Shown piece after piece: positions 1 to 57,437 of a stretch of 64,000 nucleotides of DNA. The stretch is taken from positions 1,240,001 through 1,304,000 of the forward strand of contig JAPEIS010000008.1 of assembly GCA_029531795.1 (NCBI GenBank), in the 5' to 3' direction. Each line of letters opens with the position of its first letter. Position 1 is the stretch's first letter. The stretch is from Sclerotinia nivalis. Taxonomy: Eukaryota > Ascomycota > Leotiomycetes > Helotiales > Sclerotiniaceae. Position numbers and translations under genes: made by a program. The notes beneath the pieces were generated by a model. That model was not told where the DNA came from, made no database searches, and saw only the letters and a program-made list of their open reading frames with translations.

Positions 1-2529
1 CCACTCCTGTGGTGTTAACTGAGGTGTAGGTACTTAAGGCCCAAAACCCCAATGGCAATGCAGAACCAAAAATAGTTCATAAATACGAAGGACGACTGAA
101 TAATATTCCTTTAGTGCACTCGACCATTGGTCAGTTCGCGGCAAAAGAACTCTTGTTGAATGGTATATGACGCTTCTTCCGTTTGTATCAACTGGATACC
201 GGTATCCAATTGGATGTCTTTGCCATTGCTATGCAGGCCACTCACTCTTCCAGCGTTGTTATGATGTTATATCTTTATGCAGGAAAATAGGGGTGCGTAT
301 AATAAATGGCGCACGCACGGGTATCTGCAAAGACAAAAGGACGCGGGATATCTGGAAGTCAAAATGGTTCGAAGCTTGGATCTCTATGGGATGTTGAATG
401 TTTGAATGTTGGACTTTCCAGGGTTGAACGGGCCGGCTTGATACCGGTATGAGAAGAAGAATTAAGTACCTACTCTAACTCTGTACTCTATTGGAAGCTT
501 CGTCCAACGGATCTCAATCCACTTTCGTTTCTTTAAGAGTAGCTTATCAAACGCAATCATCAGGATGTAAACCGTGTAATTAATGTCATACCTCATGGCA
601 CACCGCTCTTTTCTGCATGAAAAATCCCATCGTACAAACCGGCTACACGGTGTTTCTGTATTCATGTATATTTGACGGCTAACCGCAGAGATATTCTTAA
701 GGTTAGGGATCCTTTTTGATAGATTTAGAAGAGTGAGAAAGGTGTGGTTGCACGTACTCTGTACATCCCCTCCCCTCCCCCTGAAACTTCAATGGCTGTC
801 ATCACAGTATCACAGTATCACGAATCACGAATCACGAATCACGATGGCATTTATGATTCTACCCTTCTCTGTCCAATCTCAATCCCTGGTTAGATCCTTT
901 CTTATGCCGGCCCCCAATCCCCCCTCATGCAGTTTGGTGGTACGAACTGTGACTCCTTTTTTAAACTTCTTTCAAGGTTCGGAATGGAATCATCCAATTT
1001 AATTAAAAAATAATGGGGATGGGTTCATGGGTTCCCCAGGAGATGCAGCTGCCATGTTTTTGGTGTATGAGTTGGTAATTTACAAGCATGGCCTTTTATT
1101 AGATATGGCGACATGCATTTTGAATAAGATCTATCGAAAGAAACGAACCATAGAAACCTTGATCATTCCATGGATATAGCTCTTCAGATACGTTTCTGTT
1201 TTTGTCATCGAGACCGGGAATTCTGGTGAAGATTCTTGATTTTCTCTAGCTGTGGAGCTGGATATCGTAGATTTCATAGGTAGGTAGGAGTAGGAGTAGG
1301 AGATAGGACAGCACGGGCTTGACACAACCGTTCTTTTCGTCTATGGGGCCGGTCATGAATGATATGATGAATCAAAGCGGAAATGAATTGTAATTGTAAT
1401 TGTAAATTTTACCTATCTACGAAATATCCTTCATGACATCAGTGAGTACATTTGGTTCCTGGCGACAAATTAATCAATCAATCAATCAACCAACCAATCA
1501 TCTTGATTCGAAATCGAGTACAAACATCTTACCATGCGGAAGTACACATAAATCATATCGTGCTTTACCATATTGTACCCCCTTCATCCATTCCGGGGAA
1601 AGCTCTTTTGGGGATACCAATTTTCCCTTTATCCGTCACGACCCTTGAAGAAACGATTTCCAGAAGCCCTTTTGGGCGTTTAGAAACTCCAATCCCAGTG
1701 GTCGCCATTCTATCGGTGTCAGAAACCCTAGAAATATTGGAATATATTCTCCAAAGGGGTTAATGATTTGAGTACTAGGTACTAGGTACGAGGAGCTAAG
1801 TAGATTTGAAGACCAAAGACCGAACAAGTGACAACCCCAATAAAGTATATGCCCCATATCGAAAATCACTACTGCACGACCATATTACTCAATACCATAC
1901 CCGATTATCAACAACTGATCGTCTCTGCTTCTGCTTCTCCGCTGTTACGAAACGGATCCCACTATTCTACATCACAATCAACAAACAATCAATTCAATTC
2001 AGTTCGACGACAAACAAACGGGAACGAAAGGCAATTTGTACCCTCACCTCACCTCACCTACCAACTTCAACCACCAGCATATGCCAATCTTCAAGTCAGT
2101 CCCTACCGATTCACTCCTGAGGAAATAAATTATTCTGTAGCACGCAAGCAAACCTTCCCCGATATTTCGGCTTGTTTCGAAAAGAGATTCTGTTGCATCA
2201 ACCTCTTCTGACATTCATTGCATCAGAAAATCACCCTAGTACCTGGCCAAAATATATTACCCGCAGACAAATTATCGCAAGCGGCTGGTCGACGGGAAGT
2301 AATATAGAAATATTCAAGAAATCTAGAATACGGGACAATCGATTGAATGATTCGCATCGGCAAAGGATTGGCGCGCAATTGAAATCGAACCTTACGTAGG
2401 TATTGATCGAGGCTAGAGTCGCAGTGAGGGTGGATCTCAAAATAGGAAACAGTTCAGTATCATCATATTATCCTTTCGAACCAATTCTACAATACTTCAT
2501 ATGACGACTCAGCTGCAATTGTGGCTGCC
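1..2529. other. 5' intergenic region, no supported gene
   Basis: No reading frame here looks like a real protein; those present are short and of low-complexity or random composition. Simple repeats are visible: an AATCACG-type run near 801-846, a TAGG/GTAGGA run near 1280-1304 and CCTCA repeats near 2041-2062. The last few hundred bases are CT/CAAT-rich, as in fungal promoters and 5' leaders, and probably serve the Sec7 gene that starts at 2530. Confidence 0.5.
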
Positions 2530-5500
2530 ATGCATACCATCGAGAAGATGCCGAACGCACCGACGAAGCGACTCGGCGTTGACCTGAATGTTGATACTGG
2601 CTATAAAGGAAAAAGAAGAGAAAGTATATCTCCGCCCCAGACACCGGAGGCGCAGGCCACCACTAAAGATAATATTACTTCATCAAATCGGGCGCTTAAT
2701 GCACGGAATAGAACAGGGCATTCATTTTTAGATGACATTACACCAGCGGATCCTTCGAACAAAGAAAATGATCCTGAGAATGTACGAAGTAACCGGGATT
2801 CCCACGACCTCTCACTTTCTCCCCGACAAGTTACCCGCGATTCTTTGGTAGATCATATGCTACTTTCCCTAGATCAATTCTCCTTTGGTCAAGAAGATTT
2901 TAGTTTGCGCAATCCTACGCTCGCTGAAGATCGGTTATATTCCTCCTTCGGTGATGACGAACCACACCAATCACCTCAAAATTTCGCAGCTAGGGGTGGC
3001 AGAGGACACGCTTATTCCTTCAGTTCTGACTACGATCCTGCGGATGACTCGAGTCGATATTCGGACAAAATCTCTCGCAGTCGAAGAAGTAATAGCAGTT
3101 CCAACTTCCAAACTGGGTTGACGAGAATTAATAGTATACGCAACGACATAGGTGGATCACTCAGAGGACCTCCGATACCACAGCGCGGAGGGAGAAAGAA
3201 TACTGGCAGTAGTGTGGGAAGTAAAGGGAGCAGTGCGAATAGTTTCGACCTTGGGTACGCACAAGTTACAAGCAGTCAGAGGTGGGCGCATGGTTTGGCG
3301 GGGAGGTCCTCAAGCTTTGATTACGGCAGTGATCCCCAAGCAACTTCTCAGTCCATTGTGGGAAGACATATGAATAATATAAATGTACCTTCTACATCTT
3401 CATACGACTACGACGCGGCTCCAACACCTACAGTACCTGGCGGTCCACGACGTCCTCGACCTACATCTCCAATTCTGGTTTCACGACCCGATCCTACTAT
3501 CATCGATCCTCCAATGGAGAAGTTAGAGAGGAAAAGAAGTGCAAAATCGTCAAAGAGCGCATACAAGCCGAGGGGTTTCACAAATCCTGCCAGGCATGAA
3601 TATGGCCTTAATGATCGCAGTAAAGAATTGCCACCCATGCCGGCTTTCATAAAAGAACAATCTCCTTCAACGGGTGGGGCATATTCAAAAACGAAAGATG
3701 CTCTCCAGCACGCGCAACCTTCCGCTCAAGCGCCCAAGGAAAAACCTGGTTTCTTTAGAAGAGTTTTCGGTTCTTCCTGGAACAACAGTGTTGTGGTACC
3801 CGACCCACCACCATCGCACGGTTCCACTACCTCCACTGAAACGGCGGAACGTCCAGGTAGCAAAACTCATGTTGCTAACCAAATGAAATCTAACAACGTA
3901 TTACCATCTCGAGAAAATCCACAAGCTCCGAAAGAACACCCGCATGTACTTACCAAAAAACCATCGTCGTTCTTCCGCCGGCGCAAGAAGTCCGTGTCTG
4001 ACCCCGAACCTGTTCCCGTTCCAGCAATGCCGTTGCCATCCATGATGCTCGAGCCACACAAATTGCGACCAGACATTCCAGATTTACAGCCTGAGGCCAG
4101 TCCCGTAAGTAGCCTTCGCCAGGTTATGAACCCATATCTACACAGCCCAGGGAGACCTCCATTTGAGGTTCATCTACCAACCGCTAGCCTTGATCGGCAA
4201 ATTAATGATATTTCCGATGATGTTGAAAGCAAGCGCCATGTAAGGGGCTTTTCTCCGAATTACGATCCAGACCCAAATGCTACAATCAGACAAATACCTC
4301 CTTCGAAACCGGCGTCATCGCATGCTGGGGACAGCCGCCAATCATCTTATTCATCCATTAAACAACCGCGTAGATCCGCGAGTACTAATTTGGCTATGCC
4401 TGGTGGATTTGACGGGCAAGCCAAGGAAGACCGTGAAACATTCTTCCAAGGTTCTAATGAGAGTGACCGTGACGCAAAGTCTAATTTGACGACCACGAAA
4501 GATGTACCTGGTAGTACATTGTTACCCAGTTCGGCCTCTCCTGGTCCCTCTTCCTCAGTGGTGAGGGATATGGCTATTGTTGCGGAATATGAAAGAATAC
4601 ATTCAAAACGTTCCCCGACGATCTCCAAAAGCCCACCGGAATCAGAAGCCAATACAGTGGAGCCTCCTTTGGAGTCACCTCTAAGTACCGTGGATTCCAA
4701 GGACAGTCAGGCACTATCAACTGGTCCTGCCAAAGAAGAAGATTGGGTAGTGCTTACTCCTTCTAAGTCGGACTTGCCAGAGAAAGATCGTGTTTGGTTG
4801 GAACCTGGATCATCGGAAGAAGATCTGCCAGCAACAAATACCTTGAAACCTAAACTCGCGAACTCGATTGCGGCTACAGGATCTACCGATACCGTTTATA
4901 AATCAGCTGTTAGTCTACCACTTTTACAAGTCGAGGGACAAGAAGAAGGCCCGCCTGCTAGCCCTCCTCCAATGTCTGATAAGGAAGATATTGCGCCATT
5001 TGAATTCCCAGACTCGGAAGGAGTTGATGATACAGAACCCACAGAAGAAGACCTAATTAGAGCACAGAAGTTATACGACGGCAATGAAGATTTCATTCAA
5101 AAGGAAAAGGCGACGGCATGGATGGGAGACGAGGGAGCTGTTCGGGCAAGGACTCTGAAGGCTTACATGAGTCTTTACAACTTCACGAATATTAACATCC
5201 TCGCTTCGATGCGTGTGGTTTGTGGTAGACTGGTGCTTAAAGGTGAAAGTCAACAGGTTGACAGAATATTGGATGCTTTCTCAAAGAGATGGTGCCAAAG
5301 TAATCCCAATCATGGATTTAAAGCTACAGGTAAGTTGATGTGCAATACTCATTTTATATTAATCTAATGTGTTTAGATGTCGTGCACACAATTTGCTACT
5401 CGGTTCTTCTGCTCAACACAGATTTGCATGTTGCCGATATTGAGCAAAAGATGACTCGTAGTCAATTCATTAAGAATACAATGCCCACGATACGTCGAAG

Positions 5501-7377
5501 TGTCGCAGATTCCGCGCATGAATTTGAGCCCATCAGACCCACGGTACTCCCTGGAAAAAGCTCCGCTTTCGATGATCCCAATGTTAACGACGATAATGCC
5601 GACGCTGTGTCAATTGAAGTTTTTGAAAAACCTTCTTGGAGGTCTTCCTTCAAGCCTGCGCCACGTCAAGATTCTGATAACCCAAATGCTCCGACACCTT
5701 TAGATTATGACACCCCTATGGATGATTGTGGGCCCTTGGTTAAGGCACCCTTTCGCGGAACTTTACGTACCTGGGAAGTACAGGTTGAGATTGTTCTTAA
5801 GGACTTTTATAACTCTATCCGCAATGATCGTCTTCCGCTATTCGGTGCCAGCGATAGGTCACAAATGCCGGCTTCATCATCTAGTACTCTTTCAGTGTTC
5901 GCCAATGGTATGCTACGCCGTAGTCCTAGTGTTTTGAGCAAAGCTCCCTCAGAATCGCCCAGTTATCTTCGCGGGAGAACCGCAGAAACTGTACGCACAA
6001 ATGGAAAGTGGAGCAACAAAACTCGATCGAGACCTCGCCTATATCCCAATTCAGCCTTGGGATCTAGTCGAACTAGTTTGGATGATCAATCATCTATGTG
6101 GAGTCCTTCAGTATCATCTAGTACTTGGAGCAAGTATTCTCTTGGCAAACATACCTCGATGTCTGTAGATTCTCTTGGTTCTGTATTCCAAGGTGATTAC
6201 CAACAATCTATTGGATTTGCCAATGCTCTTAGTCAAGCAATTATTCGCGAAGAAACAGTCCATAGTTCAGGCAGCAGAGGTAGTGATCATGAAGAACTTC
6301 GTGTTGCTCCTCTACTCGATGATGAATCTTTAGAACTTGCTGGTGCGCCATGGGCAAAAGAAGGTATGGTGACGCACAAGCATCATCTGGAAGCTCTTGA
6401 CAAGAAAGCAAAGGATCGTAACTGGATCGAAACATTTGCTGTCATCGAAAAGGGTTACATGAGCTTGTTCTCATTCTCTACGAAAAGCGTGCGAAAGACT
6501 AAAGGTAAACCAAGTGGTGGAGTTGTTGGTGGTGGGAATTGGCAGGAGAATGCCGAAAACCTTGGCTCATTTCTACTCCGACAAACTATTGCTAGTGCGC
6601 TACCTTCACCAGGCTATTCCAAGGCTCGCCCTCATGTCTGGGCGCTTTCTTTACCTACTGGAGCAGTACATCTCTTTCAAGTAGGTACAGCAGATATCGT
6701 CAAGGAATTTGTCACAACAGCGAATTACTGGAGTGCTCGCTTATCAAACCATCCCCTAGTTGGTGGTATCAGCAACATCGAGTACGGATGGTCTGATGAC
6801 ATCGTAAATAACCCCCTAGTCACCGCGATCAATGAACAAAACACTAGACCATCAACTTCTGGTGCTAGACCCAGCATGCAAAGTTCTTTACGATCAAGCT
6901 TGGATCATGGTTATGTGGGTGGTATCAGGTCAAGGTTACCGGGTGATAGAATCGCCATAAATGATTGGAGTCCTCCAATACAGAGCATGAGGGCTAGTAA
7001 CTTAATGGAGCCGGATCAGCTGAAAACATTGACTGCTTATGTGCAGAGTGTCGAGGAAGAATTGCAGAGACATAATATGTTGAGGAATCCCATGCTTTTG
7101 GCTGTACGTTTTTATATTCCTCCGTTCTTGAATCCTGACTAACTTAAAACAGTACACACCGCGTCACCCTAACGCTCAAAAAGCAATGGCAAATTGGGAA
7201 AAGAAATCCTCATACTTGCTTCGCGAAATTGTGAAGTTCACAACATATATTGATAGTCTGCATGCAGCTGAGGTAGGCAGACAAAGGATATATGCCGACA
7301 GAGCGGCACATCGAGCTGTCGCTGAGAGAAAAGATGAAGATGAAGAAGCAGAGGGCAACACTACAATCACCAAATGA
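2530..7377 (+). CDS. Sec7-domain Arf guanine nucleotide exchange factor with PH domain (Syt1/Yel1-like)
   Basis: Three exons, 2530-5329, 5377-7103 and 7153-7377, separated by introns of 47 and 49 nt; both splice junctions restore one frame of 1583 residues. The first ATG in frame is at 2530; the frame is open slightly further upstream but without ATG. Residues 1-830 are Ser/Pro-rich and look disordered. The Sec7 core lies at about 835-985, split by intron 1; it contains VCGRLVLKGESQQVDRIL with the catalytic-finger Glu, and CYSVLLLNTDLHV. A PH domain follows at about 1262-1390 (begins EGMVTHKHHLEA), then a helical Sec7-PH tail. Sec7 proteins load GTP on Arf/Arl GTPases at Golgi or endosomal membranes. 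The long disordered N-terminus is typical of Syt1-type fungal Sec7 proteins. The exact yeast orthologue (Syt1 or Yel1) is not decided. Confidence 0.9.
5330..5376 (+). other. Intron 1 of the Sec7 gene
   Basis: GTAAGT donor, CTAAT branch-like sequence and TTTAG acceptor. Removing it joins ...HGFKAT to DVVHTICYSVLLLNTD, which is continuous Sec7-domain sequence. It is therefore supported by the protein family and not just by splice signals. Confidence 0.88.
7104..7152 (+). other. Intron 2 of the Sec7 gene
   Basis: GTACGT donor, CTAACTT branch-like sequence and AACAG acceptor. It joins ...NPMLLA to YTPRHPNAQKAMANWEKKS in frame, and without it the protein would stop at 7140. Confidence 0.85.
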
Positions 7378-8420
7378 AACTTACAAAATCATTTGTACGA
7401 AGAAAGATGAAGATACATTATGACGATTATGTATATACGACACGGATGACTCTGAGTGAAAAGAAACCCCGATATTGTGTTTTCCTTGACGGATGAAAAA
7501 TGGGATGATTTGTATGGGAGGGGAAATGGCAAAGGAATGGCGTTTTACATTTTTGCTTGAGGGAACTTAGAACGCTTTAATATTCCGACACGATGAGTGA
7601 CGGTCTTCTTAGTACTATTTCGCCGATTTGGCTTGCCTTGGCTTTGGCTTGGTTTGGCTCTCTTGCTTTTCAAATTAGAAATGCAGGAGGGCTCTCTCTA
7701 TTTTTGTAATTCGAATTACTCCGTTTTGGTTTACAAGTTTTGTTGGTTGGTTGTTTTTGATTGATTGAGTTTATACCCCGTTCGCTGTTGTTGCTTGCTT
7801 GCTTGGATTTTGTTTGCTTGGGGAGGAGAAAGGAGGAAAGAGGAAAGAGAAGAAATAGAAAGTAGAAGTAAGAGAAAATTCTATGGCTTAGTGAAGAAAA
7901 AGGCTGCTTTGTGATGTAGCGCTCATGAAGAGGCGGAGGGAGGAAGATGGGAAGGAAAATGGGAGGGGGAGTGGATTAAAATAGCTTAAAGCAGCTGGGC
8001 TTTGCTTTGCTTCCCTTCATGGAAAAAAGGAAGAGAGGATAATTGATTGGGATGGGAGATGGAAGATGGGAGAGGGAGAGGGAAGAAAATCGCTGTGTGT
8101 ATATATATTTATATATATATGTATTAATAATCCCACGTATTTATCTTTCTAAGGTTGGCGTAATGTAAGATGTAAGAGGTGTAAGAAGGTGAGTGAGTGA
8201 GAAAAGAGATAGCGAGATGGAGATAGAGTAATGTGGGTGTGGATGTGTATAGGTGTTGAAGGGGAAGAGATAGAATGAGAAAAATAATAAGGATATTATT
8301 GGATGGGATGTATTTGTTTGTTTTTGTTTTTGTTTTTGTTTAGTGTATATTGGAATATATTGGAATATATTTGTTGTTTGGTACATGTTGATATACGTTG
8401 GTGGTGGTATAGATTTTTGA

Positions 8421-8538
8421 TATTTTGTATTTTGTATTTTGTATTTTGTATTTTGTATTTTGTATTTTGTATTTTGTATTTTGTATTTTGTATTTTGTAT
8501 TTTGTATTTTGTATTTTGTATTTTGTATTTTGTATTTT
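8421..8538. repeat. Heptamer microsatellite (TATTTTG)n, about 17 copies
   Basis: Near-perfect head-to-tail TATTTTG units over 118 bp, ending in one variant unit (TATTTTA). The low divergence implies recent slippage. Confidence 0.95.
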
Positions 8539-8606
8539 ATTAATTAGAATATTTTTTTGGGTTTGGGTGGAGGGGTGGAATTGGGGAATTGTGGGGATGA
8601 GTGAGG

Positions 8607-8680
8607 GGGATGAGAGGGATGAGAGGGATGAGAGGGATGAGAGGGATGAGAGGGATGAGAGGGATGAGAGGGATGAGAGG
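8607..8680. repeat. Nonamer minisatellite (GGGATGAGA)n, about 8 copies
   Basis: Perfect 9-bp units over 74 bp. Because 9 is a multiple of 3 it creates open frames on both strands (DER repeats on plus, HPS repeats on minus), which I do not take to be genes. Confidence 0.95.
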
Positions 8681-9559
8681 GTGGAATGAGTAGAGGAGTG
8701 AAATCGATAGAGGAGTGGAATGGATAAATGAGTAGTAGAGGAGGGGAATTGATAAGTCTAATGTATTGGATGAATGACTTGGTTAGTGAATGGTTTGCGT
8801 GTTTGGGGACTGGGTGTTTGAGCACTGGGTTTTTGGGGTTTAATGTTGGATTTTAATTTAGGAAAGAGACTTGAAGATTTGGATGTTTTTTATGGAATAT
8901 GTGGGATGGATGGAGGTATAGGGCGAAGGGGCGAAGAGGTCCAGCTTAAATGAAAATGTGAATGGATTGAAAATTTGATGGATAGTCAGTAGTTCTGGAC
9001 TTCTTGAGGGTTCTCTGTTGATTTTCGAAGAGAAAGTGGATAATTGATGAGCGCCGACAGTTCTGGCGTTGAAGTGTGTTTTTGCTTGTTGCTGGAGCTG
9101 TTGAAGTCTTCCTATAGTTGTTGAAGATTATTCATTATAGTTACGCAGAATTTTATATATTTATTCTATAGATTTATTCTAGCAGAAGATGAAGATCTCG
9201 CGGGAGTAAATACATACACGTATTTCAGAATTCAATAGTGTGGTAATCCAACCTCCTAATCCAGACATAGGCACCCTACCCATACCCAGGGTATTTGGCC
9301 TCCTAGAGTATTTACTCTACCTATCAGATATAGCAGGGTATTTACTCTATAAAATCTACGAATACAAATAGGATACCAGATTTGATCAGATGATCATCCT
9401 ATATAATCATCCAAAGTTTAAACTATTTTAAAATCATCCAATGAATATATAACCATACGATATTCTTTGGATACCAAATAACTTATATTTATATATACCA
9501 CATATATATATACTTAACCCAATAGATTAATCTATACCCAACAATATTTTACAAAATAT

Positions 9560-10653
9560 TTACCCTATTTTATGAAAATCGAATAAGACATTTACCCAGA
9601 GAATAATACCCCGGATGACCCCGGGTATACCCCACCCTTCGCCCAACCCTGCGCTAATCTGCATACGACTCCCTATATGGCCGTTATGGTCGTTATAGCC
9701 GTTTGGCTTACTTCGATCTTTATGTGCCAGCATCGCATAAAACGCCTCTTCAGAAACAGCATGATTGATCTGGATAGAACTCCCAGAAGCTTCGTTGTCA
9801 CGAATCTCCAGATGAAAGACCTCCTCCCTCCATCCCTTTTCGCCAATTGGCCCATTGATCTGAAGGGCTTGTTCCCTTGTCACATTATTTAGGACAATCC
9901 GACCAGAAATCCACCCTGCATCTTTTGAATTTCCCTGTACATCATCACCATTTGTCGTTCTTCGTGAAAGATCTTCACTTTTGATGTGGACCAATCCATC
10001 ATCTTTTGTCTGTTAGCATGTTCTGAGAAATGGGGGACTAGCATACTCTGAGGGTGTTGGTTCTTGACTAATTCAGCAATCTTGAGGCCTCCTTCGTCTC
10101 CAAATACATTGCGAAGCAGCTCATCAACTCGATTGAGAATATCCGTATTTATAGCAAGATCATCACCAACGCCCCGCGTGACACCTACGTTGGCAACATG
10201 TAGGCTGAGACCTAAATTTGACTTTGCACGATCCAGCCGCTCCATGAGCTTGACCAGTGCCTCTTGATCTTTCGATCCCTTTGCAAGTTGGTGAGCAAAA
10301 CGACGCGCTTGACTTTTCTCCCCTGGCATTGTCAATTCCAGATGCTCAATGAGCTTTTCGGTTATTTTGCGAATGTTTTCGATTTCCGAGAGAACCGCCG
10401 CGGTTCGTAAATTGGATTCATTCTTGACGAGCTCTATGATGGTGAGGATGCCTTGGATCTCGATAACACGCGCTCCAAAGACTTCCTCGAAAGCTTTCAC
10501 GTCGCCATAAGCCTTGTTAACTCGTTCGATGATGCTTATTGCCGATTCTAATAAGCCCGATGCAGCAGAGATGGCTCCGAGAACGTCGAGTCCTGACTGA
10601 AGCTCAATGTTAATATATTATTCACGGGTATAATGCCGGAGAAAGATTACCAT
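9560..10653 (-). CDS. SesA-like cell-death effector with two C-terminal HET-s-type amyloid repeats
   Basis: Proposed exons on the minus strand: 10651-10653 (ATG only), 9979-10596 and 9560-9934; introns 10597-10650 (54 nt) and 9935-9978 (44 nt). The sum is 331 residues in one frame. Residues 2-140 (SGLDVLGAISAASGLLES... to ...RAKSNLGLSLHVANVG) are a helical domain resembling the SesA/NACHT-associated N-terminal domain of fungal NLRs and stand-alone effectors. At residues 223-242 (N...TREQALQINGPIGEKGW) and 253-272 (DNEASGSSIQINHAVSEEAF) are two repeats with the spacing and polar/hydrophobic alternation of the HET-s prion domain R1/R2. The gene is head-to-head with an NLR gene carrying one similar motif. 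Inferred role: membrane-active or death-inducing effector triggered by amyloid templating. The second intron is a prediction; without it the SesA frame stops at 9889. The last 45 residues have no recognisable domain. Confidence 0.65.
9740..9889 (-). other. Two HET-s-related amyloid motif repeats (R1, R2)
   Basis: R1 is encoded at about 9830-9889 and R2 at about 9740-9799. They align on [IL]QIN: EQALQINGPIGEKGW and SGSSIQINHAVSEEAF, each ending in an aromatic residue, separated by a short linker (REEVFHLEIR). The double-repeat-in-effector arrangement is what is known for HET-s-type functional amyloids; assignment to that family here is by eye. Confidence 0.6.
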
Positions 10654-11118
10654 TTCCTCTTGAGTATGAATTGTTTGCCAGAAGCTCAGTCCAAAACATG
10701 AATTAAATGATAAGGATTGACTTCTGCTGCGAGGTAGCAGCAGTCTGCACTATTCATGCATAGCTAAACAGCTCACGGCGGTTGCATTCAAGTGGATCCG
10801 TATTCATTGGACATCATCAGTCTATACCTGCAGCTACAGATAAGCACTATGAGGAGTAATCCATCGATTGGCCTACATGACTTCAGCCGCTGCCCATAAG
10901 CGCCTGCGACGTGTTAGCGAATGGGGTGGAAACCTCCACTTTTATTCTAGTTCTTGCACAAACCACCAGTTCACTCATATTTTTATGTTTTTCCACAAGT
11001 GATACGAGGTACAACCTGCTTGGGCCCTTTGCTTGCCTTCGGCCGTTGGAAATTCTTACCGACAGTTCAAGGACTCGTTTAATCATAACCTATACCTCTT
11101 GTTTCTAATCTGGAATAG
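10654..11118. promoter_or_regulatory. Shared divergent promoter of the effector/NLR pair
   Basis: 465 bp separate the two proposed start codons, which point away from each other. No reading frame in this interval looks coding. Divergent arrangement from one control region fits co-expression of the two partners; no specific operator could be recognised. Confidence 0.4.
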
Positions 11119-11217
11119 ATGGCTACGACTATTTCGTCGTATGTTGCAAGTGGAAACGATGTGGCAGGATGCGGGAATATCCAAATCAATGGCCCAGTAA
11201 TGGGGAATGTGAATTTT
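11119..11217 (+). other. Candidate NLR-borne single amyloid motif (r0-like)
   Basis: Encodes MATTISSYVASGNDVAGCGNI followed by QINGPVMGNVNF. The stretch VAGCGNIQINGPVMGNVNF matches the effector repeats around QIN-GP-[VI]. The most likely donor (11209) would cut after MGN, so the last three motif residues depend on the true splice site. Confidence 0.5.
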
Positions 11218-12579
11218 CCATCTACCCACTGCAAGTATCCTAAAAGACCTTGCAGAGATCAATTCTCAACCTTTTTCCAGAGGCTAATCTTCAGAATTTG
11301 GCAGTAGCCGGAGAACAAAAGAAGAGACAAGACGAATGTTTCAGTACACTCTTCCTGACGCACCCCGGAACCGATAAAGAAGGAATATGTAGTCGCAATG
11401 GTAATCCAGTGAAGAGTACATGCCAATGGATTCGGGAAGTCAAGGAAATCAAGGATTTTGAGCAAAACTGGATATCCGATTCTAAAAACTTCATTTGGAT
11501 GCACGGTGGCCCTGGAAAAGGCAAAACTTATCTTTCCATTTACTTGGCGAATTACTGGATTTCGAGTAATGACCCTCAGCAGCCCAATCATTTAGTTTTG
11601 GAGTACTATTGCGACAAGAGCAACCCTCAACGTAATACGGCCTTATGTGTGCTTCGGAGTCTGCTGTGTCAGCTTCTAAATGCAAACAACGACCTATACC
11701 AGGAGATTTTGGAGGAGTTTGATCTGTGCCGTCAGCGAAACCATGATCTTGCCAGTAATGCTTACATTGAGGATTTATGGCGAATATTCAAGTGTATGGT
11801 CAACAAGCTTTCAAAAAACATATTTTTCGTTTTGGACGGACTTGATGAATGTGATGATGACTCTATTAAATTCCTCCAATCAAAAGTGGAAGGATTCTAT
11901 GGAGCCGTCGACGCGAAATATCAAATGAAATTTAAGACAATTATCGTTAGCCGTTCATTACAAAATAAGGTTCAAGCGCAGTTGTATATCGACTTGGATA
12001 ATTTGGACCAAGAATACAGTGAAAAGCGAATGAAAGATCTCACGACATTTGTCTCTGAGAATGTCGATCGGATAAGCAGAATTCCTGACGAGTATAGGGA
12101 CAATCTAAAGCAGCTTCTACTTAGCCGTACCGGCGAAACATTTCTGTGGGTTTCTTTGGCAGTCGGTGAATTCAACAACAATACCGGAATGCTCGAAGAA
12201 GTCATCAGCCATCCTGACTCTGTTAATGCATGGCTACCAAAAGGGTTAGATCATATGTACGATCGGATTCTAATGAACATACCAGAGTGCAGGCGCGAGA
12301 TTTCTTTCAATATAATTCGATGCATTTGCATTGCCATGCGTCCTCTGACAAGGACAGAGATCGGTATGATGATTAATGTCAGTGATGTTGAGGTTGGAAT
12401 ACACATTCGAAACCTTGAGAACATCATAAGGAGTTTAGATGGTCAATTTCAGTTCATTCACTTATCGCTAAGTGATTATCTACGAAGTGTCCCGCCTCTT
12501 GCATCTCCGATACTATCTAGCCATCTTTTTAACAAACTTTTATTGGCGATAGAAATGGTTTTGAGGATACCTTATCTAG

Positions 12580-12700
12580 AGTCTGCCCTCGACTTGGCGC
12601 TTTTCGGTCTTCTTACAGTCATTATCCTTTGTTTGATTAGGGGTTTATTATTCTATGCTGGCTTTACTATTTTAACAACTGTATTCTACTATCGCTTCGG
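12580..12700 (+). other. Hydrophobic, membrane-like insertion within the NLR
   Basis: Encodes two adjoining hydrophobic segments (LALFGLLTVIILCLI and LLFYAGFTILTTVFYY) split by an Arg-Gly turn. They lie between the NACHT winged-helix-like part (FIHLSLSDYLRSV) and the EAHEELFERCL helix that normally follows it closely in this family. Confidence 0.5.
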
Positions 12701-13100
12701 CAGTCGTAATTTTCTGAAGCCACTCTTCCTCGTAAGGTCTTTCCATCAACACTTGAAAATACGAGCGTTCGGATTTAAAGAACAGGAAGCTCACGAAGAA
12801 CTGTTCGAGAGATGCTTGGTATCCATGGAGAAGTTGAGAATGAATGGATGTGAGTTGGAGCCCGGGACTTCTGTTGCGGAAGTCAACAAAGAAAAATAGG
12901 CAAATTATCTGCCACATGTCGAGTATCCATGCCGTTACTGGATGGATCACCTCCGAAAAAGCAAAGTTAAGCAGAAAGATAACGGCAACCTTCATAACTT
13001 TCTATCCAAGCATTTTCTTCATTGGCTGGAGGTTATGAGCTTGATGGAAAAGCTATCAGAGTGCATCATTGTAATAAGCGCTCTACAATCTTACATTTCA

Positions 13101-13163
13101 GTAAGCGATTGTATCTTTTTATCTCTTTCTCTTCCTGGAGAATCCAGCTAATAACCATGAAAG
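13101..13163 (+). other. Intron within the NLR gene
   Basis: 63 nt with GTAAGC donor, GCTAATAAC branch sequence and AAG acceptor. Removing it joins ALQSYIS to DIEHPTLSAFVHDAKKF in the same frame, which is the usual linker before the WD40 domain. Unspliced, the frame stops within the intron. Confidence 0.7.
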
Positions 13164-15483
13164 GACATTGAACATCCTACATTATCTGCCTTTGTTCATG
13201 ATGCTAAAAAGTTTGTCCTTCACAACCAAGCGGGAATAGAACAGGCCCCCTTTCAGATATATTCCTCTGCACTTTTCTTTGCTCCAAAAACGAATATCAT
13301 TTGGCAAACCTTTCGAACTTGCATTCCTAAATGGCTTTATGAAATATCAAAAGAACGATCATGTTGGAATCATGAAGTGCAAGTGCTTGAAGATGATGGT
13401 TGCTATAAAGATTTTGTTGGCTTTTCACTAGATGGAACAGTAATTGCTTCTCACTCTGAGATTAGATATGGCACTGCTCAAGTCCGACTTTGGGATGCAG
13501 CGACGTGTGTATTGCAAAAACGCATTTTGCTCGATACAAAACTTGAATATCATTATACACTTTCGCCGGACTTTAAAATTGTGGCTTCAAGCTCTGAATT
13601 GAACGGCACGATTCGATTCTTGGAAACAGCGACCGGCAAATTGCATGCAGCAAAGCGGCACTCTAGACATGGAGTTTTAATCGCCTTCTCGTTTGATAGC
13701 AAAGTGATTGCTGAAGCCTTTTTAGATGGAACGATCCGACTTTGGAATGCAAGAGGCAATCATACCTTTCAGCCATCCTTTGAGCTCAAAGGACATTACG
13801 AACGCGTAAGAGTAGTTATATTTTCGCCAAACAATAGGCTACTTGCTTCAAGTTCTTATGACCATACGGTCCGACTTTGGGAGCTAAGAACAGGCAGATT
13901 ATTGCATACGTTCTCAGACGTCGTCTGTAGATCAATAGCTTTCTCGCCGGACAGCACTATTATAGCCGCAGCTCTTAAGTATGGGGAAATTCACCTTTGG
14001 AATTCAACAACAGACTACCAATTGCTCTGGGCATCTGACCGTCACGGAGATTTCAAATATTTGGTTAAGTTCTCGCCGAATGGAAAGGTGCTAGCTTTAA
14101 TGTGTACAAATAGCATTCGACTTTGGGACGTAGCCAAAGGCAAGTTGTTACCGGCATTTGATAGACCATTGCGTAATTATTTATCGTGTGTCACCTTCTC
14201 GCCGAATGGAGAGATTATAGCTTCAGGGTCTATTATCAACGGGAAGATCCTACTTTGGGACGCATCAGGGAGTTTGATACAAATACTCGACGGTCATTCA
14301 AGCTCGGTACAATCCATTTGTTTCTCTCCGGATGGTACGAAATTAGCTTCAGGCTCAAGGGATGGAACAACTCGGCTTTGGAATCTCAAAATTCCGATGA
14401 ATGGATCATCACCAAGGATTACCAAGATTCGGACCCCGGTCTATTTTCAGCCAATTCATTCAATGACTTATTCGCCAAACGGTAGATTGATAGCTATGTC
14501 TTCGAGTCGCAAATTTGACAATTTGGGTCTGAAAATTTGGGATGTGAAAACTGGCAAATTGCATCACAAGCTCAAGGGACATGCAAAGCCATCTAAAAGA
14601 ACACCGTTTCTGTTTTCGCCGAATAGTAAAATAATAGCTGTAAGGCGTCGCATAGCTGTTTGGCATCGCAGAATTGCACTCTTAGATACGGCATCGGGCA
14701 AGAATTTACACATACTACAAGTTAATGAAGATCGTATCGAAGGCATGGCGTTTTCGCCAGATAGCACGATCATAATTCTATGCCAAAATGATGAATCGCA
14801 TCTCTGGAATACGCAAACGGGTCAATTGTTGCGAATAGTTAAGGTTGGTGGGAAATGTCCGGTACTTCTCGCTTTGTCATCGATAACAAAGCACTAGCTC
14901 TCTGCATTGATGCCTCGGATTCTCCACCTCACCACGGTTCCTACCGCAATACGAACAACCGCGGTTCAGTTACCAGAATTTGGGATGTAGCAACGGGCGA
15001 GCTTCTGAGAACAATGGATGATGGTCATTTAGAATTAGAATCTTTTCTTGACACAGATTCAGAATTTCGCCCGCTTGAGTTTTCATCAAACAACCATATG
15101 AATCGCTTTTGGAATAAGGCGATCGGCAAGTCAGTGCCTGTGCACGATATTAATGATGCTAAGTTCAAGACACCAACCCTTGATCTATACAGAATAAGAG
15201 AAGGCTGGCTAGTCGAAAGAACATGTGATTGGCTGTGGAGTCGTGTACTTTGGCTCCCTAGCGAATATCGAACTAAGTGGGTAAAAAATTATGGTGGAAT
15301 AATAACTTTGGGGTCAGACTCGCGAAACCCCTTTCTTTTTAGGATTGGACGTGATGAAGATGATGGGTTTATTAAAGATGTGGGGAGATGGAGAGGTGAA
15401 CCCGATACAGATGAGGAATCTGAGGAGGAAGAATTAAAAGAGGAAAACTCAGAAGATTCAGAGTCAGACAACGACTGGCGGAT

Positions 15484-15858
15484 ATGATTTCGGAGGAAGA
15501 GGAAGAGGAGACCAAGTTCCCCAAGAGAATGAAATCAAAAAGGAAATTCTCGAATCAGAAAGAAGCAGAGAAAAAACATTTGGGAGGGGAAAAAGAAGAT
15601 TCTGAAGAACAATGGGAAGATATAGAGTCTGATGAAGAGTCAGAGAAGAAAGTTCTGCTTGAATTTAAGGATAGCACAAGCGAGGACAATTTAAAAATTT
15701 CTGACAAGCTTAAAAGTGTCGAAGTCAATGGATATGGTAACGGAAGTGAGAGTGATAGCACATGTAGCTGTAGCTCATGTCGTCGTCGGTGGAGGAAGAA
15801 TCGAAGGAATCGGATAAGAAATAAGAAAACGTACATACGGAGAAAGTACGGAATTTAA
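15484..15858 (+). other. Acidic/basic low-complexity tail frame downstream of the NLR
   Basis: This frame starts with an ATG overlapping the NLR stop (ATGA) and encodes about 124 residues rich in Glu, Lys, Ser and Arg. The preceding NLR frame ends in a similar acidic run (EEESEEEELKEENSEDSESD), so this may be the original continuation of the tail after another frame change. It could equally be chance in purine-rich DNA. Confidence 0.25.
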
Positions 15859-41497: not shown

Positions 41498-42520
41498 ATG
41501 TCCGATGTCAATTGTACTCCAGGGAATACCCCCTTCTTTTACAACCTTGATATATCTCCATACCGGCCTAGAGAAGAGCAACAGCAAAGACTAAAATCGT
41601 TCCTGAGATTGGTACATCCAGACAAACAAAACCACAAGAATCCCGGAGCAGTATCGAATGCGACTTCTATGTGGCAAATTTTTCCACCATATAGACACAT
41701 TCTCCGCGCGGACTATAGCTTGGAAAATTACATCAAGGATGACCTGGAACGAATACAACAATGGGACGAAGCACGCGAGAGAAGAATGCAACAACGTTAT
41801 CGTGGGATGAAACCGTGGTTCTTCCCCTATAACCCGAACCCCGAGTCGTTTCTTAATTGGGCAGTGCTGGTTAATCTCATTCATGAATTGGATGGGGTTT
41901 TACCCTTACCATCAAAGATGATCGATTCTTTTTGGAACTCGAAAGTTTTCCGTGTTTGGGAACCGGAAAAACCTATACAAGTGCTTATGTATGATCATGC
42001 ATGCAGAGAGTTCACATTAAATATAGACTCTAAAAGGTGGGATATCCCGACGTGGACATCGAGGGACTCGAGAAGCGATTTCAATCAGTATTGTGACATA
42101 GCGGCAGGGCGGGTTGAAGATCCTTTTGAGAAATATTTTTGGGTGGGTGTATTTGTTGTTTACTTTGTGATACTATCGACAATTTGGTTGCTTTTAAGGC
42201 TCTTCTGGTACTTGTTTGCTGGCAAAATCAGAGCCCTGATGAGGAGGAGAGCTTCTTATATCACCCAATCTCTGGAGAACGACACTGTGGTGGGGAAGTT
42301 GGAGGGTGGAAGTGGAGAGGATAGAAGTGAAGAGGATGGAAGTGAAGAGGATGGAAGTGAAGAGGATGGAAGTGAAGAGGATGGAGCTGAAGAGGATGGA
42401 ACTGAAGAGGATGGAACTGAAGAGGATGGAACTGAAGAGGATGGAAGTGAAGAGGATGGAGGTGAAGAGGATGGAAGTGAAGAGGATGGAAGTGAAGAGG
42501 ATGGAGGTGAAGAGGATTAG
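41498..42520 (+). CDS. J-domain-like membrane protein with acidic pentapeptide repeats
   Basis: A single open frame of 340 residues from ATG 41498. Residues 11-85 resemble a J domain: YNLDISPYRPREEQQQRLKS then FLRLVHPDKQ, with the diagnostic His-Pro-Asp at 40-42. J domains stimulate Hsp70 ATPase. A Trp/Pro-rich middle part (EARERRMQQRYRGMKPWFF) follows. A strong membrane segment lies at 214-241 (FWVGVFVVYFVILSTIWLLL), then a basic stop-transfer stretch (RALMRRR). Residues 272-340 are about 14 copies of a pentapeptide SEEDG (A/T/G variants at position 1), encoded by a 15-bp minisatellite up to the stop. The highly acidic tail could bind basic proteins or Ca2+, or just be expandable filler. It is not an ordinary DnaJ: no G/F or zinc-finger region is present. 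Confidence 0.65.
   Translation: MSDVNCTPGNTPFFYNLDISPYRPREEQQQRLKSFLRLVHPDKQNHKNPGAVSNATSMWQIFPPYRHILRADYSLENYIKDDLERIQQWDEARERRMQQRYRGMKPWFFPYNPNPESFLNWAVLVNLIHELDGVLPLPSKMIDSFWNSKVFRVWEPEKPIQVLMYDHACREFTLNIDSKRWDIPTWTSRDSRSDFNQYCDIAAGRVEDPFEKYFWVGVFVVYFVILSTIWLLLRLFWYLFAGKIRALMRRRASYITQSLENDTVVGKLEGGSGEDRSEEDGSEEDGSEEDGSEEDGAEEDGTEEDGTEEDGTEEDGSEEDGGEEDGSEEDGSEEDGGEED
42311..42517 (+). repeat. Coding minisatellite, 15-bp unit GAAGAGGATGGAAGT, about 14 copies
   Basis: The unit length is a multiple of three, so copy-number changes keep the frame of the J-domain-like protein. Variation is confined almost wholly to the first codon of each unit (Ser, Ala, Thr, Gly). Confidence 0.95.
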
Positions 42521-55672: not shown

Positions 55673-57437
55673 ATGTCGAAGACTTTCAGTCAAAGCGATG
55701 TTGCATCGCACAATAAGCCTGATGATCTCTACATCATCGTAGATGAAGATGTTTACGATCTCACCAAATTCCAAGACGACCATCCAGGAGGCAAAAAGAT
55801 CCTCACAAGAGTCGCTGGGAAAGATGCCTCGAAGCAATTCTGGAAATATCATAATGAAGGTATCCTTAAGAAATATAAGGCAAAGCTACAAGTTGGATCA
55901 TTAGACACAAAGAAAGCCGCTGCACCACCAACGCCACCCGCCACTCCTCCACCAGCAAAAGAAGCAGTTAAACCGCAGGCCGAAAGTGGTGCGGTTGTGC
56001 CGACTCCAGCGAATGATGCTAAACAGGCCGTGGAGGAATCGGAACCGTTGGATCCGTATGGTGATTTGATTCCATTTGGAGATCCATCATGGTATCAGGG
56101 TGTAGGTTTTCCATCTTTCATGAATCTGCGAATAATACTAATGAGATAATAGTACCACTCACCATATTTCAATGAAACCCACGCTGCTCTCCGTGCAGAA
56201 ATCCGCGAATGGGTATCTGCCGAAATCGAACCAAATGTTGGTGAATGGGATGAAGCCCGAAAGGTTCCTGATGAAATATATAAACAAATGGGAACTCGAG
56301 GATATCTAGCTGGTTTGATGGGTATGCATTATCCAACTCAATATACTGAGAATAGGATCAAGAGTGTGCCACCTGAGAAATGGGATTTATTCCATGAGAT
56401 GCTTCTTACCGACGAATTGTCCCGTGCGGCAAGTGGTGGGTTTGTTTGGAATGTTATTGGAGGATTCGGAATTGGTTGTCCGCCATTGGTTAAATTCGGA
56501 AAGAAACCTTTGGTAGAGAGAATTCTGCCAGGCATATTGAATGGTGACAAGAGGATTTGTTTGGCTATTACTGAGCCAGATGCTGGTTCTGATGTTGCCA
56601 ATTTGACCTGTGAGGCAAAGTTGACAGAAGATGGGAAACATTATATTGTTAATGGTGAGAAGAAATGGATCACCAACGGTGTTTGGTGTGATTATTTCAC
56701 CACTGCTGTTAGAACTGGAAAGGAGGGTATGAATGGAGTTAGTGTTCTTCTTATTGAGAGATCGGCTGGTGGTGTTAGCACCAGAAAGATGGACTGTCAA
56801 GGTGTTTGGTCTAGTGGAACTACATATATCACATTTGAGGATGTGAAGGTTCCAGTTGAGAATCTCATTGGAAAGGAGAACCAGGGATTTAAAGGTACAT
56901 TTCATCCTCCTCCTCTCTTTAGCATCTACTAACATTATTATAGTCATCATGACAAACTTCAACCACGAAAGAATCGGTATAATTATCCAATGTCTCCGCT
57001 TCTCCCGTGTCTGCTACGAAGAGAGCGTAAAATACGCCCACAAACGTCGCACCTTTGGCAAGAAACTCATCGATCACCCGGTCATTCGTCTTAAGCTCGC
57101 TCACATGGCTCGTCAAATTGAAGCCTCCTATTCTTGGCTCGAATCCCTCATTTACCAATGTTCGAAGATGGGAGAGACAGAAGCTATGTTAAGACTAGGT
57201 GGACCAATCGCAAGTCTCAAGGCCCAAGCTACAGTCACCTTTGAATTCTGTGCAAGAGAAGCGAGTCAAATTTTCGGAGGTCTGAGTTATAGTCGTGGTG
57301 GTCAGGGTGGAAAAGTCGAGAGACTTTATAGGGATGTGAGGGCCTATGCTATTCCGGGTGGAAGTGAGGAGATTATGCTCGATTTGAGTATCAGACAGAG
57401 TTTGAGGGTAGGAAAGGCGCTGGGTATGAAGTTGTAG
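55673..57437 (+). CDS. Cytochrome b5 - acyl-CoA dehydrogenase fusion
   Basis: Three exons, 55673-56101, 56153-56894 and 56944-57437 (introns 51 and 49 nt), 554 residues. Residues 1-75 form a cytochrome b5 haem domain with both haem ligands: His37 in HPGGKK and His60 in FWKYHNEG. A Pro/Ala linker (about 80-130) follows. Residues 140-554 are a complete acyl-CoA dehydrogenase: helical N-terminal domain, FAD-binding ITEPDAGSD and KKWITNG, then NFNHERIG and the C-terminal GGLSYSRGGQGGKVERLYRD. The position of the MCAD-type catalytic Glu (usually YEGT) reads IPGGSEEIM, so the base must lie elsewhere or be one of the adjacent Glu. The family oxidises acyl-CoA at C2-C3, passing electrons from FAD; the haem domain could be an internal acceptor. 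There is no clear PTS1 (ends GMKL) and no mitochondrial presequence. Confidence 0.92.

Follow-up and report, generated by a model that had tools for sequence, protein, structure and literature searches.

The closest described counterpart of the locus considered here is the HET-S/NWD2 pair, for which ligand-induced oligomerization, templating, domain release and cell death have been described (PMC5485727, PMC9815663). The HET-s-related amyloid motifs (HRAM) are defined by a Gly at position 19 and hydrophobic residues at positions 5, 8, 10, 16 and 18; the published HRAM screen included SesA proteins of up to 310 residues, the copies on the NOD-like receptor (NLR) side were reported to be poor in charge, and the Pfam family PF11558 matches only 38 of 155 HRAM proteins (PMC4518210). 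More recently, a 2025 paper on motif detection dealt with four fungal motif families and used five sets (HRAM, sigma, PP and PUASM 1-2; PMC12261475). In this work, we describe a gene pair found in a 64-kb window of Sclerotinia nivalis (the window being the whole stretch of DNA analyzed; genome-wide scans covered the 50.3-Mb, 31-contig assembly), formed by an effector gene, whose product carries two related repeats (R1 and R2), and an NLR gene, whose product begins with a single related stretch (r0).

The observations gathered below raise the possibility, to which we give somewhat less than an even chance, that R1, R2 and r0 represent a fungal family of amyloid-signalling motifs distinct from HRAM, sigma, PP and PUASM 1-2. 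Such a family would be marked by an invariant Q-h-N core (h, hydrophobic residue), with an effector side, in two copies, extending from Leotiomycetes to Dothideomycetes and a receptor side present also on NLRs of Sordariomycetes, and it would combine a two-repeat, HRAM-like layout with a glutamine-centred core resembling that of RHIM and PP. The argument for a shared motif draws more on conservation, position and the adjacency of the genes than on any single score.

A divergent gene pair and its shared motif

The effector gene lies on the minus strand and the NLR gene on the plus strand, head to head, and both can be read from their start codons (10653 and 11119, respectively), with R1, R2 and r0 all in frame. 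In this, the original prediction, made from the DNA letters, was right on the divergent pair as well as on the two effector repeats and the one related stretch on the NLR. It had also placed the pair at 9560..15487; the start stands, whereas the NLR seems to continue past that end, weak homology in an acidic stretch reaching approximately 15720. The main features are the following:

9560..10653, minus strand: effector gene, three exons (10653-10651, 10596-10047 and 10002-9560, including the stop codon), 331 residues; the spliced product is P0001
10597..10650, minus strand: effector intron 1 (GTAATC...TTCAG), yielding the N-terminus of P0001
10003..10046, minus strand: effector intron 2 (GTATGC...AAAAG), yielding P0001 exactly
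10066..10653, minus strand: predicted SesA/HeLo-like helical domain, residues 1-178 (AlphaFold2 and hhalign)
9830..9907, minus strand: repeat R1, residues 217-242 (core LQINGPIG), in 20 of 22 effector proteins
9740..9817, minus strand: repeat R2, residues 247-272 (core IQINHAVS), in the same 20 of 22 effector proteins
10654..11118, no strand: presumed shared promoter, the 465 bases separating the two start codons
11119..11244, plus strand: putative first coding stretch of the NLR, as far as it is homologous to the Ciborinia NLR
11149..11217, plus strand: N-terminal motif r0 (SGNDVAGCGNIQINGPVMGNVNF), kept in P0017 of Ciborinia
11418..11954, plus strand: NACHT/NPHP3_N nucleotide-binding domain (PF24883, E 3.7e-29; NACHT, E 8.6e-9)
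13164..15720, plus strand: WD40 sensor region and acidic C-terminus (Pfam and homology), with frame changes at about 14830-14978 and about 15478-15589

The spliced effector product is identical, over 331 of 331 residues, to P0001, the S. nivalis protein OCU04_007594. An effector intron at 9935-9978, as initially proposed, is ruled out by this protein, whose annotation uses 10003-10046 and which requires the intron at 10597-10650 as well; the proposal that the last effector reading frame carries the repeats agrees with P0001, in which both segments are found, in frame and within one exon. As for the NLR, r0 is in frame from the ATG at 11119, and homology to the Ciborinia NLR spans 11119-11244 in the same frame (42 residues, 62%, E 3e-11). 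The intron suggested at 11209-11255 is unlikely because it would remove the 'VNF' of the quoted motif and because the Ciborinia homology continues to 11244. Among the frame-keeping donors, those at 11197 and 11209 would cut r0 and that at 11235 would spare it; considering the homology, r0 is taken here as probably kept whole.

A search with the effector domain retrieved 15 proteins and one with the repeat region 20, which makes 22 effector proteins together. Both R1 and R2 are present in 20 of them, coming from Sclerotinia, Botrytis/Botryotinia, Monilinia and Massarina eburnea (which we take to be a member of the Dothideomycetes), plus two Joint Genome Institute (JGI) proteins; the deposited models of the remaining two, P0010 (Ciborinia) and P0015, lack the repeats. 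When 21 effectors were aligned (P0015 excluded), the mean pairwise identity was 0.60 for residues 1-180, 0.37 for the linker (181-216), 0.73 for R1-R2 (217-273) and 0.49 for the tail, so the repeats are more conserved than the linker and the tail that flank them. The R1 and R2 cores are spaced by 29-30 residues (a value of 15 returned by the script was read as an artefact of the pattern). Neither the Q nor the N of the core varies across 19 selected r0, R1 and R2 segments, and charged residues amount to 6.3% in r0 (9 segments) versus 23.5% in R1 and 22.8% in R2 (20 segments each). AlphaFold2 placed one pair of strands in each repeat, at 220-223/231-234 in R1 and at 249-252/261-264 in R2, the pairs being 29-30 residues apart; a second run, on residues 205-285 alone, reproduced this arrangement. 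It is compatible with two beta-arches, although it is no proof of them.

On the receptor side, a search with the NLR read through retrieved 184 proteins, some of them bacterial WD40 proteins, and the best 120 (140,268 residues) were used. Among these best 120 matches of the 184, seven occurrences of the pattern [ILV]Q[ILVF]N[AG]P were counted, all of them within the first 70 residues, which make up 6.0% of the total. The bearers are P0017 (Ciborinia camelliae NHQ30_008134, with the motif at residues 11-33), one JGI protein, one from Beauveria, one from Dactylonectria and three from Fusarium; another Fusarium protein, P0119, carries a variant of the core pattern. Judged by their names, four of the seven are presumably Nectriaceae, so they are not all independent. 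The two genes appear to be linked in other species as well. In Ciborinia, the NLR NHQ30_008134 and the effector relative NHQ30_008135 bear consecutive gene tags and come from contigs of equal listed size. In Botrytis cinerea, linkage is probable because the NLR P0018 (a model lacking the first exon) and the effector P0003 are on contigs of the same listed size (227,709).

Two DNA patterns for the core were scanned across the genome, yielding 14 sites (18 for the control) and 10 sites (one for the control). For the two sites of the pair itself, the distance to a NACHT match is 236 and 1,569 bases, and the other 22 are at least 21 kb away from one or on contigs that lack NACHT matches. An identical 17-base string able to encode IQVNAP was found five times on four contigs (C19-C22), none of which has a NACHT match; perhaps it belongs to a repeated element.

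The two proteins and the state of the receptor gene

The effector had been described as SesA-like, and the profile comparisons support this, even though the direct Pfam match is below threshold. Residues 2-178 are mostly helical in the AlphaFold2 model (most 10-residue blocks having a predicted local distance difference test score, pLDDT, of 60-88). In hhalign, the effector domain matched, at 97% and E 9e-11, the SesA-class domain of L033, a locus of the same genome in which that domain (SesA E 1.9e-4, below the cut-off) sits directly upstream of an NB-ARC frame. It also matched, at 88.6%, the PF17111-type domain of L029, which reaches the cut-off of PF17111. L029, on contig C4, and L028, on contig C6, are closely similar NLR genes with a PF17111-type N-terminal domain. 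Likeness to the effector domain was also detected at four other places in the genome (E 3e-5 to 0.7), and the three examined are all N-terminal to NLR-type frames. Compared directly with Pfam SesA (PF17107), the effector exon open reading frame scored 12.6 bits (E 0.15), under the cut-off of 26.3 bits, whereas full-length P0001 gave no match at E 1; among 21 effector relatives, one matched SesA (E 0.0028). On the basis of its homology to these NLR N-terminal domains, the effector domain is assigned to the SesA/HeLo-like superfamily.

The effector tail following R2 (window 9560-9700) has a hydrophobic end in both Sclerotinia proteins (1.51 and 1.63) and in P0003 of B. cinerea (2.23), possibly a tail anchor; at a threshold of 1.3, no such end was called in the remaining 18 effector models scanned.

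The NLR, with its NACHT/NPHP3_N domain and its WD40 region, is a fungal NACHT-WD40 NLR. Its sequence contains three further elements:

12594..12650, plus strand: hydrophobic, transmembrane-like segment of 19 residues (Kyte-Doolittle mean 2.59)
12897..12899, plus strand: in-frame stop codon (TAG), where four relatives have an open frame
13101..13163, plus strand: probable intron (GTAAGC...AAAG, 63 bases), after which homology resumes in the same frame

The hydrophobic segment lies between the NACHT and WD40 parts, and similar ones are found in P0016, P0017, P0018 and P0022, against a background in which a 19-mer of at least 1.8 occurs somewhere in 23 of the 116 other NLR-search matches; a membrane-anchored NLR would be unusual. 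Two changes of frame follow downstream, the first within approximately 14830-14978 and the second within approximately 15478-15589, and each may correspond to an unrecognized intron or to a lesion. The last piece (15589-15720) appears to be in a third frame, is acidic, and is 45% identical to the Ciborinia protein alone (E 3e-6). The NACHT half has 18 matches in the genome at E 1e-10, its next best match being 30% identical, and no second r0 was found, the scan including six frames at 30 of the 54 NACHT matches (best E 1.9). Because of the stop codon, the frame changes, the lack of a second r0 and the distance of the nearest NACHT relative, the NLR of this genome is probably non-functional or truncated to an r0-NACHT product, while the effector is intact; the pathway may therefore be inactive here, the effector staying intact. 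NLR relatives that are open exist in other species.

Elsewhere in this genome, five paralogous NLRs (L007-L011) with short N-termini before NACHT carry a longer motif, GNFTNA[DS]GLQFNA[SP]N-N-GGG..ININ or a variant of it. It came to light through a hit of the core pattern upstream of NACHT in L010, in the six-frame scan of 30 NACHT loci. Its core reads LQFNAP in L010 and LQFNAS in L007, L008 and L011, L009 having a variant, and lies within a longer N- and G-rich stretch ending in SININ or PININ. No Pfam motif was detected on the three tested (L007, L008 and L010). By its resemblance to the r0 core, this may be another amyloid motif, with sigma, a different family and a cousin of r0 as the candidates.

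The window also contains tandem arrays at 8415-8681 and 42302-42517 (a 7-base unit x17.6, a 9-base unit x8.9 and a 15-base unit x14.4), and the neighbours of the pair include genes for a Sec7/PH-domain protein (2446-7142) and for an acyl-CoA dehydrogenase (56153-56932).

How strong the likeness is, and what else could explain it

Whether the three segments are alike beyond chance received a graded answer: a single pair stands moderately above chance and the result is firmer when relatives are included, but the scores are modest. The Smith-Waterman score of the effector C-terminus against NLR exon 1 (34) was reached by 105 of 20,000 shuffles, that of the whole effector against the same exon by 359 of 20,000, and that of R1 against R2 by 76 of 20,000. 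When a profile of R1 and R2 was run against 121 N-termini, exon 1 of the window's NLR ranked third, its 10.0 bits (E 0.0024) exceeding the maximum of 8.6 bits seen among 12,100 shuffled N-termini. Conversely, a profile of seven NLR motifs from outside Sclerotiniaceae scored highest within one of the two repeats in 20 of 21 effectors.

Several observations weigh against a genuine shared amyloid motif. The single-pair similarities are modest (p 0.004-0.02), 5 or more of 20,000 shuffled versions of exon 1 attain its R1+R2 profile score of 10.0, profiles of R1 and of R2 fail to find each other above shuffles, and most scores of the seven-motif profile, whose members had been picked by the core pattern, are reached by many shuffles. 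Looser patterns are less N-terminal, with 8 of 11 and 7 of 16 occurrences in the first 70 residues, and the borders of the motif family are not sharp, because the L007-L011 motif is different and longer and yet has a similar core. The strand pair predicted for each repeat, called for as a check on a beta-solenoid, comes with low confidence (pLDDT of about 48-62; predicted template modelling score, pTM, of 0.28 for the region alone). Foldseek returned no significant match of the repeat model to solved structures, and profile searches of the PDB found no relatives; HET-S HeLo did not appear among the matches listed, an absence that carries no weight. Charge complementarity between R1 and R2 (31 opposite pairs, 20 same) was considered and discarded, being no better than slid controls (33 versus 2 after a slide of two columns), and hence lends no support. 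Finally, the Ciborinia effector model has neither repeat, and the NLR bears the in-frame stop and the two frame changes, overlooked by the original prediction.

An alternative is that R1-R2 has another job, as a conserved tail for binding or as a small domain, and that its likeness to the NLR N-terminus reflects convergence on a short string, a notion in line with the modest single-pair significance and the weak beta-arch models. We regard it as quite improbable, given that all seven occurrences of the string in the 120 NLR-search matches are N-terminal, that r0 is kept in Ciborinia, and that the genes appear linked there and probably in B. cinerea. An origin as a diverged HRAM subclass, sharing the ancestry and the beta-solenoid of HRAMs under an altered sequence, also seems unlikely, although it draws on the two effector copies facing one NLR copy, the 29-30-residue spacing of the cores and the charge-poor r0. 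Aligned on the best glycine, the HRAM pattern finds 1-2 of its 5 hydrophobic positions in R1 and 1-4 in R2 (20 effectors), and 2-5 in the r0 of five NLRs. The full 5/5 belongs to the r0 region of the window, in one register (shuffle rate 0.03), while 4/5 is reached by 7 of 20 R2 segments, with shuffle rates of 0.07-0.09 for three of these; however, the 5/5 register and the 4/5 registers inspected all lie ahead of the conserved Q-h-N core. Moreover, the r0 of the Ciborinia orthologue scores 2/5, R1 does not exceed 2/5 in any of the 20 effectors, and the position expected for G19, after the hydrophobic pair of the core, holds an N in 19 of 19 aligned segments. In the conserved register the HRAM signature was absent from the 20 effectors and from the r0 of five NLRs, and Pfam gave no family match up to E 10 on either the effector or the NLR motif side. 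The HRAM assignment of the original prediction, with a subclass of its own, is therefore unsupported, the rejection applying to the conserved register and resting on the published pattern and Pfam rather than on HRAM subclass profiles. It may be added that 6 of the 22 effector models exceed the 310 residues of the published screen.

The state of the receptor gene gives nearly even odds to a different account, in which the locus is a relic: the NLR would be a pseudogene, and the effector would be on its way out or would answer another NLR, for instance one of the five paralogues with an LQFNA-type core. The stop at 12897-12899, the two frame changes, the lack of a second match to r0 and the 30% identity of the nearest NACHT relative all fit this account, as do the motifs of L007-L011. 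On the other side, the effector is intact, the stop precedes the sensor half alone, so that an r0-NACHT product is still possible, and an assembly error or unrecognized introns could be responsible.

Proposed mechanism and comparison with described systems

It is fairly likely, by analogy, that the two genes encode a receptor and executioner pair in which the signal is passed on as a copied short fold, r0 templating R1-R2 in the manner of NWD2 and HET-S. In this model, the effector would join a SesA-like helical death domain, whose first helix is hydrophobic, to a flexible tail bearing the two repeats, and the NLR, without an effector domain, would carry a single N-terminal copy of the same motif. 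Binding of a ligand by the WD40 part would lead to oligomerization of the NACHT part, the clustered r0 motifs would stack as beta-arches, and this template would convert R1-R2 into a two-layer stack. The helical domain, thus released, would attack the membrane and cause cell death. Oligomerization, amyloid folding, templating, membrane attack and a role in non-self recognition are all proposed by analogy; what is observed is the gene layout, a conserved shared motif that is restricted, on the NLRs searched, to the N-terminus, and the domain relationships.

If R1, R2 and r0 do define a family of their own, represented on receptors as well as on effectors, the type of partner could be predicted for orphan NLR N-termini in Fusarium, Beauveria and others, and the specificity of amyloid cross-seeding could be tested between families. 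A further question would be whether the effector layout with two copies has two separate origins or HET-s-type and RHIM-type motifs are linked through intermediates. The strings QVNAP, IQVNA and VQVNAP were not found in the literature searched, supplements and figure logos being outside its scope, so novelty in print is not claimed; likewise, the motif strings do not occur in the available main text of PMC9815663, PMC8086366 and PMC7889193.

Distant NLRs (Fusarium, Beauveria and Dactylonectria) also carry the motif, again N-terminally, which speaks for a motif family of its own, and, from the sequence comparisons, R1, R2 and r0 probably form a separate family, outside those whose published definitions were checked. 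Among the unassigned NLR motifs, the orphan NLR34, reported from 29 NLRs of Ascomycota with no effector found (Wojciechowski et al., 2022; PMC9815663), could be the same motif on the receptor side. The sigma system (SESA/SESB/HET-eN of Nectria haematococca) similarly has a SesA-class effector beside an NLR that shares its motif, but that motif comprises about 40 residues with threefold submotifs (PMC5485727), the distinction being drawn by description only. PUASM 1-2 share with our pair a motif at the NLR N-terminus and the effector C-terminus; in contrast, their effector is a PNP_UDP protein (PMC9815663), and membership was rejected, since the signature FxGxGxQxxGxGxF was seen in none of 20 effectors or 9 r0 segments. 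The RHIM core is built on a glutamine flanked by hydrophobic residues. Both PP (PNT1/HELLP) and RHIM resemble the present motif in having a glutamine between hydrophobics at the core and in the logic of signalling from NLR to effector. PP differs in having a single copy on the effector (PMC4518210), and it was likewise rejected, as neither its signature NxGxQxGxN nor the RHIM G-h-Q-h-G core was found (0 of 20 effectors, 0 of 9 r0 segments).

The nearest layout is that of HET-S/NWD2 (HRAM1, Podospora anserina) and the other HRAM pairs, as the original prediction had recognized: an effector adjacent to a divergent NACHT-WD40 NLR, a helical effector domain, two C-terminal repeats on the effector and one charge-poor copy at the N-terminus of the NLR. 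Unlike those pairs, the one described here has a Q-[IV]-N-[GA]-P core that departs, in the conserved register, from the HRAM spacing of glycine and hydrophobic residues, a SesA-class domain in place of HeLo, and no Pfam match. Therefore, while the pair probably works like HET-S/NWD2, it is not filed here as an HRAM.

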